From positions 1-30,808 of IMG/VR virus record IMGVR_UViG_3300005824_000036: a stretch of 30,808 nt of DNA; one strand, written 5' to 3'. Below are positions 2,391 through 20,364 of the stretch, in pieces. The first letter of the stretch is position 1. Each line of letters starts with the position of its first letter. The translations under genes and the position numbers were made by a program. The DNA is from a virus. Below the pieces are notes generated by a model that did not search any database, was not told where the DNA came from, and saw only the letters and a program-made list of their open reading frames with translations.

Positions 2391-2935
2391 CCGTTTTTGC
2401 TACAGGCTACGATTTCATGACCACGGCCCAGAATGAATCTGGGGCGACCAGCCTGTGGCAAAACCCCCAGAACGTCCTGCAGGATCCAGCCAACTGCACC
2501 AAGAACATCGCGTCGAACGGCAGTATCTCCAAGCTGGAGACTGCGATCCCAAAGGCAGGTCTGCTGGTCCCCGGAGGATTTCCCCTGCTGCCCGGGGTGG
2601 TGCTGGTTGGCATCGATCTCTCGGTGCGGATGCGGCGTAGCAACACAGGCCAGAGTTTTGAGGTGGATCACCTGATTGGTGGTGCCAATAGCTACCTCCA
2701 CATGATGTTGGCCGACAGTGATACGGCCTACAGAACCTTCACAGTCGAGCGGGATCTGTCTGAGTGGGGCCTGACCCAGCAGGAGGCGGTCGACTTCATC
2801 ACCGGAACCACCAAGCTGTACACCGATGTGTTCCGAGGCCCCAATGGTGGAACCACGCTGAATATCCAGTGGATCAAGGCTCAGGTCCGTTATGACTACA
2901 CTCCGACCGGAAACTCTATTCCAAGGTTGTTTTGA
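2387..2935 (+). CDS. Hypothetical virion protein in fibre operon
   Basis: A 182-residue protein that overlaps its neighbours on both sides (ATGA with the upstream fibre gene, TGATG with the downstream collagen-like gene). It has no signal peptide or transmembrane segment and a beta-rich, aromatic-containing C terminus. I do not recognise the family. Position between two fibre genes suggests a structural or receptor-binding accessory role, or a fibre connector; that is inference from context only. Confidence 0.6.
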   Translation: MTVFATGYDFMTTAQNESGATSLWQNPQNVLQDPANCTKNIASNGSISKLETAIPKAGLLVPGGFPLLPGVVLVGIDLSVRMRRSNTGQSFEVDHLIGGANSYLHMMLADSDTAYRTFTVERDLSEWGLTQQEAVDFITGTTKLYTDVFRGPNGGTTLNIQWIKAQVRYDYTPTGNSIPRLF

Positions 2936-5463
2936 TGCCTAAGTACCGGATCGAGAGGGCCAACCTCCACGATGTGCGAAAACAGGTCAGTGATGCACTC
3001 AATGATCTGTTCGAAAATGGGGGCACACCGGGACCACCCGGCCCCCCGGGCGAGTCCTTCAAGATCGTCGGCTACTTCGGCAATATCCGCACGCCTGCTG
3101 AACTCCCAACCGATGGATTCATCCCTGCCAACTGGGATGGTCCGGGCAGGCCTGCCAGTGACTACCAGATGGATGCCAGTGAGGCACTGAACTACCAGCC
3201 AGCCGCTGGACCCACGGATCCCGGGTGGGGCGATATCTACGCTTACTACCCGATCGATCAGTTCTGGGTGAACATCGGCAAGCTGACCGGCCCACAGGGG
3301 CCTCAGGGTGAACCCGGTGAACCCGGTGAAAAGGGTGACAAGGGCGACCCGGGTTCCACCGGACAAATGGGACCTATTGGCCCAACAGGACCAAAAGGCG
3401 ATCAGGGCGACCAAGGCATCCAAGGTCCTCAGGGTGTCCAAGGAGAGCAGGGACTACAGGGTGACACAGGCCCACAGGGTGAAACGGGCCTGACGGGGCC
3501 TCAGGGGCCTCAGGGCGAGGATGGATTACAGGGTGTCAAGGGTGATACCGGCGATACAGGGCCTCAGGGACCTCAGGGCGACCCCGGACTGCAGGGTGAT
3601 CCCGGCCCACAGGGTCCAGAAGGCCCACAGGGGCCTCAGGGACCTCAGGGCCTGAAGGGTGACACCGGATTAACGGGTCCACAGGGTGAGCAAGGTATTC
3701 AGGGTGAGCAGGGTATTCAGGGTGTTAAGGGTGAAACCGGCTCGATCGGACCGGAGGGACCAAAGGGCGACACAGGAGATCCGGGTGAGGCTTTCCAGAT
3801 TGTTGGATACTTCGGCGATATCCGTACTCCTGCTGAACTACCCAGCGATGGATTCCTACCGGCCAACTGGGACGGCCCGGGCAGACCTATCAATGACTAC
3901 CAGATGGGTGCCGGTCAGGCACTGTACTACCAGCCACCCACTGGACCCACTGACCCCGAGTACGGAGTTCTCTATGCATACTTCCCTATTGAACTTGATT
4001 GGGCAAATGTCGGCAAGATTCTTGGACCCGAGGGACCCATGGGACCTATCGGGCCTCAGGGACAGCAAGGCGAAAAGGGTGATACGGGATCACAGGGCCC
4101 ACAGGGCATCCAAGGCCCCCAAGGCGAGGAGGGATTACAAGGCGATCAGGGCGAACAGGGTATTCAGGGGCCTCCGGGAGGCGTAGGTCCACAGGGTCCG
4201 AAAGGCGATACCGGCGAACAGGGCCCGGCTGGAAAAAACGCCCAGAGTTTCGTGCCGTACAATCTGGTTGTTGGTACAGGCACAGCTAACCCCGGATCCG
4301 GCAAAGTGGTTCTGACCTACCGAGCAGCCACTGATGACTACCTGCTGGCGATCAGCAAGAACGACACGGAAGGAGATAACCCCCCCCTCGAGAACATCAT
4401 TGCGGGTGACGTGATCAGCTTTGTGGATAACCCGGATTCAGCCACGGTCACGGAGCAGGGCCGGTTCATGGTCACGCCGAGCATTACCAACAACCTGAAC
4501 TGGGTCCAGTTCGTCGTGCAGCGAATCGACACCGACGACCAGTACCCAACCGGATATCCAAATCCCACCCTGTTATTTGTGGATCTGGGTTATATCAGTA
4601 CCGGTAACTTCTCGACGACGCGGTTCCGAATCATGACCAGTACGTTTACGGCGATCCCGGGCGGAATGTATGCACTCGACACTCGAGGGGGTGGTTTCAA
4701 CATCAATTTCCCGGCAGTCGGGGACACACAGGCTGGCGCAATCATCGCCTTTATTGATCCCTATGGAACGTGGGGAGATGACCCAGCCACACTGGTCAGA
4801 TCGGGTGGTACGATCGCAGGAAGATCTGAAAACTTCGAACTCAATATCGACTACGCCACGGCCGAGTTCATCGCCGCACCACCCAACGACTGGGCGGTAT
4901 CCCCGGACGCGATCGGCAGTGAGGGTCCACAGGGCGCACAGGGTAATCCCGGTGCCGATGGCCCACAGGGTATCCAAGGTGAGCAAGGTGAGCGGGGAAT
5001 TCAGGGCATCCAAGGTATTCAGGGTCCACAAGGCCCTCAGGGTCCACAGGGACCACAGGGTGAGGCGGCAGAACTGGACTTTACTACACTCCCTCCATCA
5101 AACGGGTGGTTTGGAAACACAGCTACATTCGTGGCCGGGGCAACGATCAGTTACGGTAATGTCGTATCCTTGGCATCAGCAGCGATTGGTGTAGAGGTCG
5201 TTCCTGCCTCGTCGGCAAATAATGCGCCATTGGTAGGTGTGGCGGTAGAGGCTGCTTCCGACGGTCAGGATGTACGCATTCTGGTCTACGGGACCATAAA
5301 TATAACCACCATTTTGAGCCCGGTTCTGATTTACGTTGGCTCGACAGCAGGCAGCATGACTGTATCACCACCTACCAGTGGATATGCCAAAATTGTAGGT
5401 TTCAAGGGGTCGAATAATGCGGTGTTTGTGAACCCACAGTTCAACAACGTGGGTGTCAGCTAA
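2935..5463 (+). CDS. Collagen-like tail fibre protein with duplicated module
   Basis: An 842-residue fibre. I start it at the ATG at 2935, which overlaps the upstream TGA by one base; a TTG one codon earlier is possible. Order: short N-terminal helix (about 1-28); a first Gly-X-Y patch; module A (about 43-117, starting SFKIVGYFGNIRTPAELP); collagen repeats (about 118-285); module B (about 286-365, starting AFQIVGYFGDIRTPAELP), a near copy of A; more collagen repeats (366-436); a central beta-rich domain (437-662); a third collagen run (664-712); and a C-terminal domain of about 130 residues that may be the receptor-binding head. Gly-X-Y tracts rich in PQG and KGD are expected to form triple helices, giving a trimeric shaft. 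The neighbours are also fibre genes. Confidence 0.85.
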   Translation: MPKYRIERANLHDVRKQVSDALNDLFENGGTPGPPGPPGESFKIVGYFGNIRTPAELPTDGFIPANWDGPGRPASDYQMDASEALNYQPAAGPTDPGWGDIYAYYPIDQFWVNIGKLTGPQGPQGEPGEPGEKGDKGDPGSTGQMGPIGPTGPKGDQGDQGIQGPQGVQGEQGLQGDTGPQGETGLTGPQGPQGEDGLQGVKGDTGDTGPQGPQGDPGLQGDPGPQGPEGPQGPQGPQGLKGDTGLTGPQGEQGIQGEQGIQGVKGETGSIGPEGPKGDTGDPGEAFQIVGYFGDIRTPAELPSDGFLPANWDGPGRPINDYQMGAGQALYYQPPTGPTDPEYGVLYAYFPIELDWANVGKILGPEGPMGPIGPQGQQGEKGDTGSQGPQGIQGPQGEEGLQGDQGEQGIQGPPGGVGPQGPKGDTGEQGPAGKNAQSFVPYNLVVGTGTANPGSGKVVLTYRAATDDYLLAISKNDTEGDNPPLENIIAGDVISFVDNPDSATVTEQGRFMVTPSITNNLNWVQFVVQRIDTDDQYPTGYPNPTLLFVDLGYISTGNFSTTRFRIMTSTFTAIPGGMYALDTRGGGFNINFPAVGDTQAGAIIAFIDPYGTWGDDPATLVRSGGTIAGRSENFELNIDYATAEFIAAPPNDWAVSPDAIGSEGPQGAQGNPGADGPQGIQGEQGERGIQGIQGIQGPQGPQGPQGPQGEAAELDFTTLPPSNGWFGNTATFVAGATISYGNVVSLASAAIGVEVVPASSANNAPLVGVAVEAASDGQDVRILVYGTINITTILSPVLIYVGSTAGSMTVSPPTSGYAKIVGFKGSNNAVFVNPQFNNVGVS

Positions 5464-6182: not shown

Positions 6183-7177
6183 CCAAGCTATCTGATTACA
6201 TTCCACAGAATCAGGGATCGATCCCCGCGGGTGGCACGACCAGCCAAGTGCTGGGCAAGATCTCCGACAACGACTTTGACGTGGGCTGGCAGGATCCAAC
6301 CTCGGGTGGAGGCGGGATCCCAGAGGCCCCGATCAACGGATCCCCGTATGGTCGACGCAATGCAGCGTGGGTGATCGTCCTGAATCAGTCGGTAGCTGAC
6401 ACCCTGTATGCCCCTATCAGCCACACGCACAGCCAGTACCTGACCGATGCGTCCAGTACTGGATCACCCTACGGCCGGCTGAACGGCACGTGGCAGGTGG
6501 TTCTGAATCAGGCCTCAGGAGATGCCCGGTATTCCCAGCTTGGTCACACACATGCCCAGTACCTGACCGATGCCCCCAGCGACAGCAAGACCTACGGCCG
6601 GAACAACGGAGCGTGGGTAGAGGTTACGGGTGGATCCGGTGGCGATGCCTCCACCCTCGGCGGCGTGCCTCCCAGTGGCTATCTGCGATCCGATGTGGCC
6701 GATGACAAGACTGCAGGCGACCTGAGATTCCTCGATAACGTCAAGCTGTCGCTGGGCACGGGTAACGACTGCCAGTTCTACGTCAACGGGGTTCACGCAT
6801 ACATCGATCTGAATTCGGGAATAGGCAACCTGTACATCCGCGATGGAACCGCCACACGGTTCACATTCGATGACAACGGCACATTCACTTCGACCGGCGA
6901 TATCACGGCATTCTCCGACGAGCGATTGAAGGAAAACGTGCAGCCTATCTACAACGCACTGGGCCGGGTCAGGTCCCTCGAGGGCGTGACTTTCAACCGG
7001 ATTGACCAACCCAACCAGAGGCGCACCGGCCTGATCGCACAGAACGTGCAGATCCATATGCCTGAGGCGGTATCAAATATCGATGGCTACCTGTCTGTGG
7101 CCTACGGCAACTTGGTCGGGCTGCTGGTGGAGGCAATCAAGGAACTCGAGGATAGGGTCGATGCCATTACCCAGTAG
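6179..7177 (+). CDS. Tail fibre/spike with C-terminal S74 intramolecular chaperone
   Basis: A 332-residue fibre protein. Residues about 58-145 hold three tandem copies of a unit reading roughly SPYGRxNxxWxxVLNQ...Y...HTHxQYLTDA; the first two carry a H-T-H motif, an HxH arrangement known in fibres that bind metal along the trimer axis. The C-terminal 87 residues match the peptidase S74 / intramolecular chaperone family, with the signature SDERLKENVQPI and the presumed nucleophile Ser246. In that family the chaperone drives trimerisation and is then cut off before the Ser. The protein should therefore mature to about 245 residues. It overlaps both neighbours, and sits in the host-recognition cluster. 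Confidence 0.88.
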   Translation: MTKLSDYIPQNQGSIPAGGTTSQVLGKISDNDFDVGWQDPTSGGGGIPEAPINGSPYGRRNAAWVIVLNQSVADTLYAPISHTHSQYLTDASSTGSPYGRLNGTWQVVLNQASGDARYSQLGHTHAQYLTDAPSDSKTYGRNNGAWVEVTGGSGGDASTLGGVPPSGYLRSDVADDKTAGDLRFLDNVKLSLGTGNDCQFYVNGVHAYIDLNSGIGNLYIRDGTATRFTFDDNGTFTSTGDITAFSDERLKENVQPIYNALGRVRSLEGVTFNRIDQPNQRRTGLIAQNVQIHMPEAVSNIDGYLSVAYGNLVGLLVEAIKELEDRVDAITQ

Positions 7178-16586: not shown

Positions 16587-16691
16587 TCTGGTGGCAGCGA
16601 AACCTTACCAGATGTGACTCAGGCTACACTAACCCCTTTGTGCAGTCAAGAGTCAGAAAAAAACCCCGGCCTAGACTCCGGGGTTTTTTTT
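16587..16691 (+). ncRNA. Candidate structured small RNA, about 105 nt
   Basis: The segment runs from a good sigma70 promoter to a strong intrinsic terminator, with no useful coding frame. Predicted stems: CTGGT (16588-16592) with ACCAG (16607-16611); GACTC (16616-16620) with GAGTC (16650-16654), enclosing a CAC/GTG stem; then the terminator stem-loop with its T-run. Promoter, compact paired segments and terminator are the layout of a regulatory small RNA. A target cannot be named. It is transcribed opposite to the flanking early genes. Confidence 0.55.
16657..16691. terminator. Bidirectional intrinsic terminator
   Basis: CCCCGG (16664-16669), an eight-base loop and CCGGGG (16678-16683) are flanked by a run of seven A on the left and eight T on the right. 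Both strands therefore end in a stem plus T-tract. It serves the small RNA on the plus strand and the small membrane-protein operon on the minus strand. Confidence 0.9.
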
Positions 16692-16693
16692 GC

Positions 16694-17576: not shown

Positions 17577-17596
17577 TTCAAAATCCTCATTTAAAC

Positions 17597-17640
17597 GATG
17601 CGATAGTGCATCAGCTTACCCCCTCCTCCGAAGGGGCAAG
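17597..17640 (-). repeat. Two-hairpin intergenic element, copy 1
   Basis: Short stem GATGC / GCATC (17597-17601, 17608-17612) followed by a larger stem CTTACCCC / GGGGCAAG (17615-17622, 17633-17640) with one A-C mismatch. It lies between the DUF932-like stop and the next start block. See copies 2-4 for the shared plan. Confidence 0.6.
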
Positions 17641-17648
17641 GTGCTGTA

Positions 17649-18401
17649 CTATGCGGCTGCTTGAAAGCTGGGAGTGAACCCAGTCTCGGCATCCATGATG
17701 GCCTGCAGTTCGATCGTGCGGCGTGGCATATCGTGGGGTGGTGCCCCCTTCAATGCTTCCGTGCAGGCATTGAACAATCGCCATGCGCGGCGTGGTCCGT
17801 GATCGACCCGGGGCTCATACCACTCGGTCACCAGCTTGTCGAAACGACTGGTGTTGATGGCATCGCGCCGGATCATCTCGATCATCAGGCGATCGGCCCG
17901 GGCATCCGTGAGTTTGAAATCCCGGTAAACCTCGAACCGCTGGTCCTGAACATAGGACATGGCCTTGGTCTGGCCCACGCCGGCAGCGACCAGATCCGGC
18001 AGATCTCGCAGGATGTGCGTGGTGTGCTTGCGCCCGATGACCACCTCTGCCGAATAGCTGAGGTTGTCACACAGGAACACGTAGGCCCCAAACAGCACGG
18101 TCGCGGCAAAAGCCTTGTCGTAACTGTTACGTACGCCCATAACCAGTGCGTGCTCATCCTGCTGGGATCCGTTCATCAACTGGACCATGCTGAAACTGCG
18201 CTGGCCGTTGCGGGTCAGGCTGTGAACCTGAGATCCGAAGGTGAACCCAACATCCCTCATTTTGTTCTCGACCAGATCGATGAAGTGGTCGTGAGCAATG
18301 GGCTGGTAGGTGTCAGTGGCCTCAGGCATGGGTGCCAGTGCCAGTTCGCTGCGATCTACTGCTGTGGCTCCACAGTGGAGTACCAAATTTGCGTTTTTCA
18401 T
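17649..18401 (-). CDS. DUF932-like phage/plasmid protein
   Basis: I start at the ATG at 18401, preceded by GAGGAAATTGAAA; an upstream start at 18440 has no such site. The 250-residue protein fits the DUF932 family found in phages and conjugative plasmids: VMGVRNSYDKAFAATVLFGAYVFLCDNLSYSAEVVIGRKHTTHILRD, where the GAxVFxCDNLxFSxE and KHT blocks are diagnostic, followed by a helical C terminus. The function is unknown; these genes are early, accessory and often near replication or anti-defence islands. It is the largest gene of the early accessory cluster. Confidence 0.78.
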   Translation of the reverse strand: MKNANLVLHCGATAVDRSELALAPMPEATDTYQPIAHDHFIDLVENKMRDVGFTFGSQVHSLTRNGQRSFSMVQLMNGSQQDEHALVMGVRNSYDKAFAATVLFGAYVFLCDNLSYSAEVVIGRKHTTHILRDLPDLVAAGVGQTKAMSYVQDQRFEVYRDFKLTDARADRLMIEMIRRDAINTSRFDKLVTEWYEPRVDHGPRRAWRLFNACTEALKGAPPHDMPRRTIELQAIMDAETGFTPSFQAAA

Positions 18402-18422
18402 TTTCAATTTCCTCTGATTAAA

Positions 18423-18464
18423 GTATCGGATTGATACCATCGTGCCCCCTCAGAGAAGGGGCAC
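18423..18464 (-). repeat. Two-hairpin intergenic element, copy 2
   Basis: Short stem GTATC / GATAC (18423-18427, 18433-18437) then stem GTGCCCC / GGGGCAC (18442-18448, 18458-18464). Nearly the same short stem occurs in copy 4. It lies between the 103-residue gene and the DUF932-like start block. Confidence 0.65.
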
Positions 18465-18471
18465 TGTGCTA

Positions 18472-18783
18472 TCAACTTTGCTCGATCGCCGCCTTGCCAC
18501 GGGCTGCTTTCACCCGTGGCCCACGTTTGGTTTTGCCCTGAACGTACAGAACCGTGTCGACCTTGATCAGCTTTTCGGGATCCACCTCAGGCACATAATT
18601 GCCGATGCGATACTTGGCATCACTGGGCAGCAGCACTTTATAGACGCTGTACCCACGGGGCTGCATGTAAGTGCATTCCCGATCAGCAGCCTCCTGCAGT
18701 CGGATGCATTCACGCAGGCTTGCGTTCGTGGTCCAGTTGGAGGCGGATGATGTGAAGAAGTGGTAATCACGCTGTTGGGACAT
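18472..18783 (-). CDS. Hypothetical early protein
   Basis: A 103-residue basic protein with AAGGAAATTGAAATG at its start. The C terminus (QGKTKRGPRVKAARGKAAIEQS) is Lys/Arg-rich and may bind nucleic acid; the middle (YSVYKVLLPSDAKYRIGNYVPEVD) is beta-like. No family is recognised. It is flanked on both sides by two-hairpin elements. Confidence 0.6.
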   Translation of the reverse strand: MSQQRDYHFFTSSASNWTTNASLRECIRLQEAADRECTYMQPRGYSVYKVLLPSDAKYRIGNYVPEVDPEKLIKVDTVLYVQGKTKRGPRVKAARGKAAIEQS

Positions 18784-18802
18784 TTCAATTTCCTTGTTAA
18801 GC

Positions 18803-18844
18803 CGGCAAAGGTGCCGTGCTAACCCCCTCGAGTGAAGGGGCTAG
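18803..18844 (-). repeat. Two-hairpin intergenic element, copy 3
   Basis: Short stem CGGCA / TGCCG (18803-18807, 18812-18816) then stem CTAACCCC / GGGGCTAG (18819-18826, 18837-18844) with the same single A-C mismatch position as copy 1. The short stem sequence differs from other copies but stays paired. Confidence 0.65.
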
Positions 18845-18853
18845 ACCAGACCT

Positions 18854-19144
18854 TTACTGGGCCAGAAAATCCTTAGCCCACTGTTGAAAACACTCATCAC
18901 GGTCGCGGATTGAGCGGCCCACGATCGCGCCCCCCAGTTGAGAAACCCGGTGGTGGAGTGCTTTTTCCATGGCTGTGATACCCGACTTAGCTACCGGGTA
19001 TTTATCCACGCCATGCAAGGCGCACATGATCTGTACCCGGCGTTTTCTGTTGGCATCGCCAGACAGGCTCCAGACGGTAAAGTATCCCCGGCTGGACTCG
19101 GATAACAGGGTGAGTGCTTCCTTTGTTTGTGCTTCGATATTCAT
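18854..19144 (-). CDS. Hypothetical early protein
   Basis: A 96-residue protein with the GAGGAAATTGAAATG start block. It is helical and basic in the middle (SGDANRKRRVQIMCALHGVDKYPVAKSGI, then MEKALHHRVSQLGG) and could be a small nucleic-acid-binding or host-takeover factor. No family is recognised. It lies between copies 3 and 4 of the hairpin element. Confidence 0.6.
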   Translation of the reverse strand: MNIEAQTKEALTLLSESSRGYFTVWSLSGDANRKRRVQIMCALHGVDKYPVAKSGITAMEKALHHRVSQLGGAIVGRSIRDRDECFQQWAKDFLAQ

Positions 19145-19162
19145 TTCAATTTCCTCGGCTCA

Positions 19163-19205
19163 GTATCGGATTGATACCAGTTTGCCCCCTCAATGAAGGG
19201 GCAAA
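19163..19205 (-). repeat. Two-hairpin intergenic element, copy 4
   Basis: Short stem GTATC / GATAC (19163-19167, 19173-19177) then a perfect 8-bp stem TTTGCCCC / GGGGCAAA (19181-19188, 19198-19205). No T-tract follows, so it is not a standard terminator. Confidence 0.7.
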
Positions 19206-19211
19206 TAGCTA

Positions 19212-19604
19212 TCACTCGTCAAGGTCAACTATGTTGGTCATTCGTGGGTCATTGGTGTCGTCATCGACCTCGATCCACGGGCCTTGCTCGGATTTTTCTA
19301 TGGCAATTTCCTCGGCATCATCCTCGTCATCCGCCTCGACCACGATCCGCTTGACATAAATGATTTCCTTGGTGACCGTCACCTCGAACCGTTTCTGCAC
19401 ATCAGGCAGGAGTTCCGGGTCGAATCGGTAGGGTGCTATGTCGCTATCCATAAACTCGATGTCACCATCGCTGTTAGCGGTTTCGCGCCAGCCCTTCACC
19501 CACGACCGGGCCTCAATGAGGGTTTCCCGCACGGCTGTGTAACAGTTCAACTCTGTCTCGCCCTTTACCTTGTAGGCAATACTTGCTGCGTATAAAACTT
19601 TCAT
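19212..19604 (-). CDS. Hypothetical acidic early protein
   Basis: A 130-residue protein with the GAGGAAATTGAAATG start block. The N-terminal half is mixed alpha/beta (KVLYAASIAYKVKG, TAVRETLIEARSWVKGW); the C-terminal part is strongly acidic (VVEADDEDDAEEIAIEKSEQGPWIEVDDDTND). Acidic small phage proteins often bind host nucleic-acid-binding proteins or mimic DNA; that is inference only. No family is recognised. Confidence 0.6.
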   Translation of the reverse strand: MKVLYAASIAYKVKGETELNCYTAVRETLIEARSWVKGWRETANSDGDIEFMDSDIAPYRFDPELLPDVQKRFEVTVTKEIIYVKRIVVEADDEDDAEEIAIEKSEQGPWIEVDDDTNDPRMTNIVDLDE

Positions 19605-19628
19605 TTCAATTTCCTCAGTTATCGACCA

Positions 19629-19677
19629 AGAGCGGCCGTGCCAGCCTGCTATAATTAACAGGCTGGACCAGTGCTCT
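19629..19677 (-). repeat. Cruciform-like intergenic element, divergent copy 5
   Basis: Outer stem AGAGC / GCTCT (19629-19633, 19673-19677) around an inner perfect stem CCAGCCTG / CAGGCTGG (19641-19648, 19659-19666). It fills the same place between a stop and a GAGGAAATTGAAATG block but lacks the CCCC/GGGG core, so it may be a different variant. Confidence 0.45.
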
Positions 19678-19680
19678 CGT

Positions 19681-19992
19681 TTACAGATCTCGCATGGTTT
19701 TTAGTGCAGAATTCAGGTCATCAATGCACTGCTTGGCGAAGGCTCGTAATGTACGGGCTGTGGCATAGTCGCCAGCCCGGTTCATGACGATTTTTTCAAG
19801 CCGTTTGGCAGTCAGTTCGGAGACAATCTGCGGATCCAGATTGGGGTACAGCTTGCCGTTTATGGTGTTATACGACCGCCCAGCCAGTTCGATCACCCAC
19901 TCGTGGGGTTTCGCGTTCTGGTGGATCTCACGCATTTTCACCCGTGCAAGTTGCAGTTCCAGTTTGGCTTGTTCCAGTACAGGGTTGGTCAT
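19681..19992 (-). CDS. Hypothetical helical protein, first of the leftward early block
   Basis: A 103-residue protein starting at the ATG at 19992, after GAGGAAATTGAAA; a TTG two codons earlier is less likely. It is helical, with EQAKLELQLARVKMREIHQN at the N terminus and RTLRAFAKQCIDDLNSALKTMRDL at the C terminus. No known family is recognised. It is the first clear gene after the strong leftward promoter at 20369-20397. Confidence 0.6.
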   Translation of the reverse strand: MTNPVLEQAKLELQLARVKMREIHQNAKPHEWVIELAGRSYNTINGKLYPNLDPQIVSELTAKRLEKIVMNRAGDYATARTLRAFAKQCIDDLNSALKTMRDL

Positions 19993-20009
19993 TTTCAATT
20001 TCCTCAGTA

Positions 20010-20073
20010 GATGCCAATTGCATCAGCAAAAGCCCTCGTTTGAAGGCCCTTGATGATGCCCCCCCGGAGGGGG
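20010..20073 (-). repeat. Two-hairpin intergenic element, copy 6
   Basis: Short stem GATGC / GCATC (20010-20014, 20020-20024), then an imperfect stem around 20029-20050, then CCCCC / GGGGG (20060-20064, 20069-20073). The first short stem matches copy 1; the second stem is shifted further from the start codon than in copies 1-4. Confidence 0.45.
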
Positions 20074-20341
20074 ACAGCATAAGGAAAAGGATTGAAAAGC
20101 TACTCACTACCCACCGCCGTTTGTTGGCCTCCAACTTAGCCCCGCATGAATAGTGCAGGGTTCAGGTTCTGTCCCGGGTTGTCCCGGGAGGTGCTTTTGC
20201 AGTGCCATGACTGCGAGGCCTGTTTTCGACCTCCACCTGTATCTTGGTGCGCTTTCCCCCCGCACGCATTCCGATCACGCTCTGGGGGTTCAGCCTTGCG
20301 GCTGGCGGTCCGGATGTCTCCGGTATCGGGCCCCGTGCCCG
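20074..20341. other. Early leader region, no convincing gene
   Basis: GC-rich leader between the strong leftward promoter and the first clear gene. It holds a direct repeat of GTCCCGGG (around 20170-20189), a CAGCC/GGCTG hairpin near 20292, and a minus-strand frame of 62 codons (20350-20162) that starts about 12 bases after the predicted transcription start. That frame is Arg/Pro-rich, lacks a good ribosome binding site, and I do not call it a gene. Confidence 0.35.
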
Positions 20342-20345
20342 GTCA

Positions 20346-20364
20346 GTCATGACTCAACTGACAA
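20346..20364. promoter_or_regulatory. Palindromic operator at the strong leftward promoter
   Basis: Plus-strand GTCATGACTCAACTGACAA matches the helicase-promoter element at 15699-15717 in 16 of 19 positions. It also overlaps a longer inverted repeat, GTCAGT / ACTGAC at 20342-20362. It sits at the predicted transcription start. Confidence 0.6.

Follow-up and report, generated by a model that had tools for sequence, protein, structure and literature searches.

Between about 17.3 and 20.0 kb of the window, by which we mean the whole stretch of DNA analysed here, a 30.8 kb record of an uncultured phage, small leftward genes follow one another on the minus strand, and the gaps between them hold recurring hairpins that raise the question of what such elements do for the phage. 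One of the genes (17649-18401, minus strand) encodes a DUF932-domain protein (PF06067, E 2.7e-7) and served for finding relatives. Upstream of the run lies a good sigma70-like promoter (TTGACA-N17-TAAAAT, 20397-20369, minus strand) with, just 3' of it, a probable structured untranslated leader RNA (20085-20362, minus strand; MFE z -3.7) that has no Rfam match at gathering or relaxed thresholds, and the orientation and spacing of the genes suggest that the cluster shares one transcript. Downstream of the cluster an ordinary intrinsic terminator, CCCCGGAGTCTAGGCCGGGG then TTTTTTT, was read from the sequence at approximately 16665-16692 on the minus strand; its GC hairpin stands between A and T runs and may act on both strands. 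Elsewhere in the window, the long protein predicted at 2932-5463 (plus strand) has collagen-like GPQG repeats and is probably a tail or fibre protein. Isolated phages have no DNA similarity to the window, the nearest terminases are at most about 43% identical to its own, and a terminase scan of bacterial genomes found no relative.

A sequence-only reading of this locus had described a common plan in four gaps (17597-17640, 18423-18464, 18803-18844 and 19163-19205), consisting, on the minus strand, of a stop codon, a CCCC/GGGG hairpin, a short hairpin and a block resembling GAGGAAATTGAAATG. We found this plan in all four, with a short hairpin of 5-6 bp and with the short stems GATGC/GCATC, GTATC/GATAC and CGGCA/TGCCG that had been listed. 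Two further copies, taken for divergent (19620-19679) and partial (20007-20060), proved to be full members of the set, and each of the six gaps that precede the small leftward genes (17594-20060, minus strand) contains a cassette; we name these c1 to c6. The two-hairpin layout is correct in its large hairpin, P2, and its short hairpin, P3, but a third helix, P1, had been overlooked. P1 forms a clamp at the foot of P2. The 5' strand of P1 is found at the upstream stop codon or directly 3' of it or, in c6, after the leader, and its 3' strand is the P3 5' strand or falls within the P3 loop. Cassette c1 (17594-17652), in the gap downstream of the DUF932 gene, has P1 ATAGT/ACTAT, P2 CTTGCCCCTTC..GAGGGGGTAAG and P3 TGATGC/GCATCG, and c2 (18420-18475), in the gap upstream of the same gene, has P1 TTGATA/TATCAA followed by a 1x1 G.G mismatch, CA/TG and a 2x2 loop, then P2 GTGCCCC/GGGGCAC and P3 GGTATC/GATACT. 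The next three are c3 (18799-18857; P1 AAAGGT/ACCTTT, P2 CTAGCCCC/GGGGTTAG, P3 CGGCA/TGCCG), c4 (19160-19215; P1 TGATA/TATCA, P2 TTTGCCCC/GGGGCAAA, P3 GGTATC/GATACT) and c5 (19620-19679; P1 GAGAGC/GCTCTT, P2 CCAGCCTG/CAGGCTGG, P3 CGGCC/GGTCG). The last, c6 (20007-20060; P1 GCATCA/TGATGC, P2 AAGGGCC/GGGCTTTT, P3 GATGC/GCATC), separates the leader RNA from the first gene; its register was defined by hand, and the automatic finder picked another. All six are on the minus strand.

The same layout recurs, with different sequences, in four related phage contigs (L001, L013, L016 and L018). Because the 3' strand of P1 is shared with P3, the two helices compete and each cassette can therefore adopt either of two folds: fold A, in which P1 and P2 together make an irregular 14-21 bp stem interrupted by small internal loops, or a predicted fold B made of P2 and P3. 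The energy difference between the two ranges from -6.8 to +3.3 kcal/mol across 17 cassettes. In c1, c3, c5 and the L001 cassette Lb the P1 3' strand sits inside the P3 loop, and in c2, c4, c6, La, d2, e1 and f2 it overlaps the P3 5' strand, so that full P1 and full P3 cannot form at once. The stop codon falls within P1 in c1-c4 and f3; it is not required by the cassette, however, since c6, La and e1 come after an untranslated leader. The start block GAGGAAATTGAAA is exact at four window gaps and differs by one or two changes in the remaining pair, and the Shine-Dalgarno block is left uncovered by both P2 and P3. A shared regulator setting translation of the small genes, one of three roles offered by the sequence-only reading, fits poorly with this uncovered Shine-Dalgarno block and with cassettes whose upstream neighbour is a structured leader that is not translated, the first gene lying on their other side.

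We compared the gaps with shuffled controls. MFE z-scores of the six window gaps were -3.1 to -5.0, and the complete P1-P2-P3 layout appeared in 0 to 1.2% of their dinucleotide shuffles. Across five phages, 15 of 20 gaps contain the complete layout, where dinucleotide shuffles predict 0.09. This statistic is partly circular, as most copies were already known from visual inspection when the layout finder was devised; the clearest copy due to the finder alone is e2, from L016. The five gaps failing the strict finder were d1, d3, d5, f1 and f5, with d1 and f5 assigned by hand. A whole-locus scan of the first set of loci yielded 26 matches at a score of at least 22 versus 6 in shuffles, concentrated in the window minus strand, L001, L013, L016 and L018. 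The 17 cassettes contain 17 different P1 strand pairs and 13 different P3 pairs, all complementary within their cassette, which is a matter of definition, given that the helices were defined by pairing. When P1 and P3 strands were exchanged between cassettes, pairing fell to only 42-46%, and none of 5000 permutations reached the observed value. Helix sequences are too divergent among cassettes for reliable automatic alignment. The earlier proposal of a selected RNA fold, made from the changing short stems, is supported by these comparisons.

Cassettes in the same gap of different phages show this variation as well. The DUF932 protein of L001 is 72% identical to that of the window, and L001 has three window-type cassettes in one gene cluster, La, Lb and Lc. 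Lb (L001:4803-4861) occupies the same gap as c1 and is nearly identical to it over about 45 nt, with P1 changed from ATAGT/ACTAT to TTAGT/ACTAA. Counterparts of c2 in the gap upstream of the DUF932 gene are Lc (L001:3938-3994) and f4 (L018:5881-5934). In c2, Lc and f4, respectively, P1 reads UUGAUA/UAUCAA, UUGAUA/UGUCAA and GUGAUA/UGUUAC, followed by a 1x1 mismatch, 2-3 pairs and a 2x2 or smaller mismatch before P2, and P3 reads GGUAUC/GAUACU, GAUGUC/GGCAUC and CGGUGU/ACACCG; pairing is thus kept in both competing helices despite changes on both sides. The near-identity of c1 and Lb between phages is what one might expect if the cassettes were mobile or recombinogenic DNA repeats that sit at the borders of genes, without RNA function. 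We regard this as highly improbable, as the many different P1 and P3 pairs always keep their pairing and the position, strand and spacing of the cassettes relative to the genes are constant.

Within the collections searched and at the sensitivity used, the cassette was found only in the phage lineage of the window, that is, in the window, L001, L013, L016 and L018. Distant DUF932 relatives from viral and bacterial collections gave 62 cassette-finder matches versus 32 in shuffled sequence, about twice as many, and the start block is not seen in those sequences. A DNA pattern combining the big hairpin and the start block had no matches besides L001 and a terminator of L107 that is unrelated, and a second pattern, built on the L018 start block, produced no convincing new cassettes. 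In L034 and L040 a DUF932 gene is present with neither cassette nor hammerhead seen beside it; in L034 a tRNA-Leu gene (6861-6947) lies just 3' of the DUF932 gene, in the gap holding a cassette or hammerhead in relatives, and is possibly an alternative cut marker. The contention that no named family has this layout holds for Rfam 15, in which no family matched at gathering and relaxed thresholds gave chance-level matches only; with L001 as query, too, none of the families fitted the cassettes at either setting. Further untranslated stretches were noted in relatives. Structured-looking leaders before the first cassette or hammerhead were seen by eye at L001:2520-2790, L013:1430-1800, L016:1320-1500 (minus strand), L017:4590-4880 and L018:4570-4760. 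GC-rich untranslated stretches before the helicase region (L001:5460-5740, L013:5330-5660 and L018:7680-7910) end in a shared TCTTAATTGAC then CTAT, with CGCTTCAAGACGGCGG common to those of L013 and L018; they have no Rfam match and are possibly an undescribed phage RNA.

Stable intergenic GC hairpins with competing helices also recall intrinsic terminators and attenuators, and we therefore considered whether the cassettes end transcription. Unlike those elements, in which a U-tract follows the GC hairpin, none of c1-c6 has a T-tract after P2 or P3, as had been noted before, and an ordinary terminator with seven T stands at the cluster end. A role as terminators or attenuators is accordingly very unlikely. 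That the phage has a normal terminator elsewhere, yet no T-tracts at its cassettes, counts instead in favour of processing. Two cassette-like folds in L031 (5885-5960 and 6734-6810) do have a short hairpin followed by TTTTTT and look terminator/antiterminator-like.

In sister phages, comparable gaps hold hammerhead ribozymes. Descriptor searches identified two candidate type I hammerheads, with complete cores and all stems, in two other gaps of the L001 cassette cluster; they scored 25.6 and 20.0 bits against RAGATH-1-hammerhead, for which gathering is 56.3. In L017, four type II hammerheads occupy successive gaps, one directly after the leader; two of them match Rfam RF02276 at 49.6 and 38.1 bits, above the gathering value of 37, and the remaining two were identified by descriptor only. 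Three more type II copies were found in L044, one with a sub-threshold Rfam match. The complementarity between loop I and the 3' tail, which corresponds to the type II pseudoknot described earlier (PMC3088659), spans 4-6 nt of differing sequence and is kept in six of the seven type II copies. No hammerhead arose in shuffles, at one shuffle per newly fetched locus; a hammerhead-like descriptor match in L026 was taken as chance. In the window itself, neither the descriptor search, run in all three permutations, nor Rfam returned a hammerhead, and the window cassettes, unlike hammerheads, have no CUGANGA and GAAA cores and no invariant core of any kind. The notion that cassettes are decayed type II hammerheads, suggested by CTGATG after P2 in c1, Lb, Lc and c6, was set aside because too few nucleotides are in common.

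Cleavage by a type II hammerhead occurs between stem III and stem I, and the upstream mRNA consequently ends in a GC hairpin while the downstream mRNA starts with a hairpin, the same arrangement as the P2|P3 plan of the cassettes. Two-ended capping is not universal, as cleavage by the candidate type I hammerheads of L001 would leave no evident hairpin at the new 5' end. Clusters of hammerheads flanking single genes in phages and prophages were reported in 2011 with function unproven, and the proposal was made that they divide long transcripts of the phage into mRNAs the length of a gene (PMC3088659). That L001, L017 and L044 have type II (RF02276) or candidate type I hammerheads in gaps of this kind suggests that here, too, one long message is chopped into single-gene messages with protected ends.

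Taking this comparison further, one may ask whether the cassettes are themselves small self-cleaving ribozymes of a new class, taking the place of hammerheads in like gaps and cutting near the P2-P3 junction, with P1 and P3 forming a pseudoknotted catalytic core and rearranging during the catalytic cycle. Cassettes do adjoin hammerheads in one L001 gene cluster, and the P1 3' strand in the P3 loop of c1, Lb, c3 and c5 would permit a pseudoknot. Known small ribozymes, on the other hand, possess conserved cores; across the 17 cassettes there are no invariant unpaired nucleotides, the strand overlap in c2, c4, c6, La, d2, e1 and f2 bars full co-formation of P1 and P3, and no Rfam ribozyme matches. 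We consider such a ribozyme improbable. The variable junction nucleotides, which speak against a catalytic RNA core, are as expected for a nuclease that reads structure.

The early RNase III sites of phage T7 (R0.3, R0.5, R1, R1.1 and R1.3) provide a yardstick for such a nuclease, as they likewise lie in gaps of a polycistronic early transcript. Folded in the same way, they show a P1 that a small internal loop separates from a P2 of about 9-13 bp, resembling P1-P2 of the cassettes, and their cut positions, which we take to lie just after the P2 3' strand, would correspond to the junction between P2 and P3. The cassettes thus have the structure of a T7-type site, an irregular intergenic hairpin of roughly two turns with an internal loop, on what is probably a shared transcript. 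Cleavage at R1.1 yields products of 47+13 nt (PMC4858673, PMC6121014), and after the T7 cut the upstream mRNA has a hairpin at its 3' end (PMC4858673), comparable to the P2 end predicted for the cassettes. Differences exist as well: internal loops are smaller and more symmetric in the cassettes than the 4/5-nt loop of R1.1, and the short hairpin that competes with P1, standard in cassettes, has a P3-like equivalent detected by the finder in only one of five T7 sites.

Collectively, these data lead us to favour, with some confidence, the view that each cassette is an intercistronic site of RNA processing, probably by RNase III, which provides both newly made ends with a hairpin cap. As the transcript emerges, P1 would stack on P2 to give the single irregular hairpin of about 14-21 bp, as the predicted fold and the compensatory variation indicate. 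A nuclease, which from the geometry is most likely host RNase III, would cleave the RNA between P2 and P3, 3' of the internal loop. The P1 3' strand freed in this way may then refold as P3, a helix backed by compensatory variation and by the near-equal energies of the two folds. After the cut, the upstream mRNA would end in P2 and the downstream mRNA begin with P3 followed by the ribosome-binding block, and the long transcript would be resolved into a released leader RNA and separate mRNAs, both ends of which are presumably guarded and stabilised; in the sister phages hammerhead ribozymes would do the same job. A hairpin at the extreme 5' end of an mRNA, as in papA, slows entry of RppH and RNase E and 5'-end-dependent decay (PMC3997798). 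P3 would resemble such stem-loops in lying at or near the 5' end once the RNA is cut, and would differ in being released only by processing. Among the roles listed in the sequence-only reading, RNase processing is therefore the best supported, through the hammerheads of relatives and the T7-like geometry, and mRNA stabilisation fits as its consequence, with a hairpin on each new end.

The same hairpins might also act without being cut, with P2 stopping 3' exonucleases, P3 insulating the ribosome-binding site and the P1/P3 exchange serving as a passive or translation-linked switch. GC-rich hairpins placed after stop codons agree with this possibility, as does the stop codon inside P1 in c1-c4 and f3, where a terminating ribosome would block P1 and so favour P3. 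It leaves unexplained, however, both why relatives have hammerheads in such gaps and why some cassettes follow an untranslated leader, and the Shine-Dalgarno block is covered by neither hairpin; we judge uncut hairpins unlikely.

Hammerheads and a hairpin element that is not a hammerhead appear interchangeably at the gene borders of a single phage lineage, and the product ends predicted for the two are the same. Should this hold, comparison of the phages would provide evidence that their hammerheads function in mRNA processing, and it would offer a testable design in which competition between two helices lets a cut cap each new end with a hairpin.
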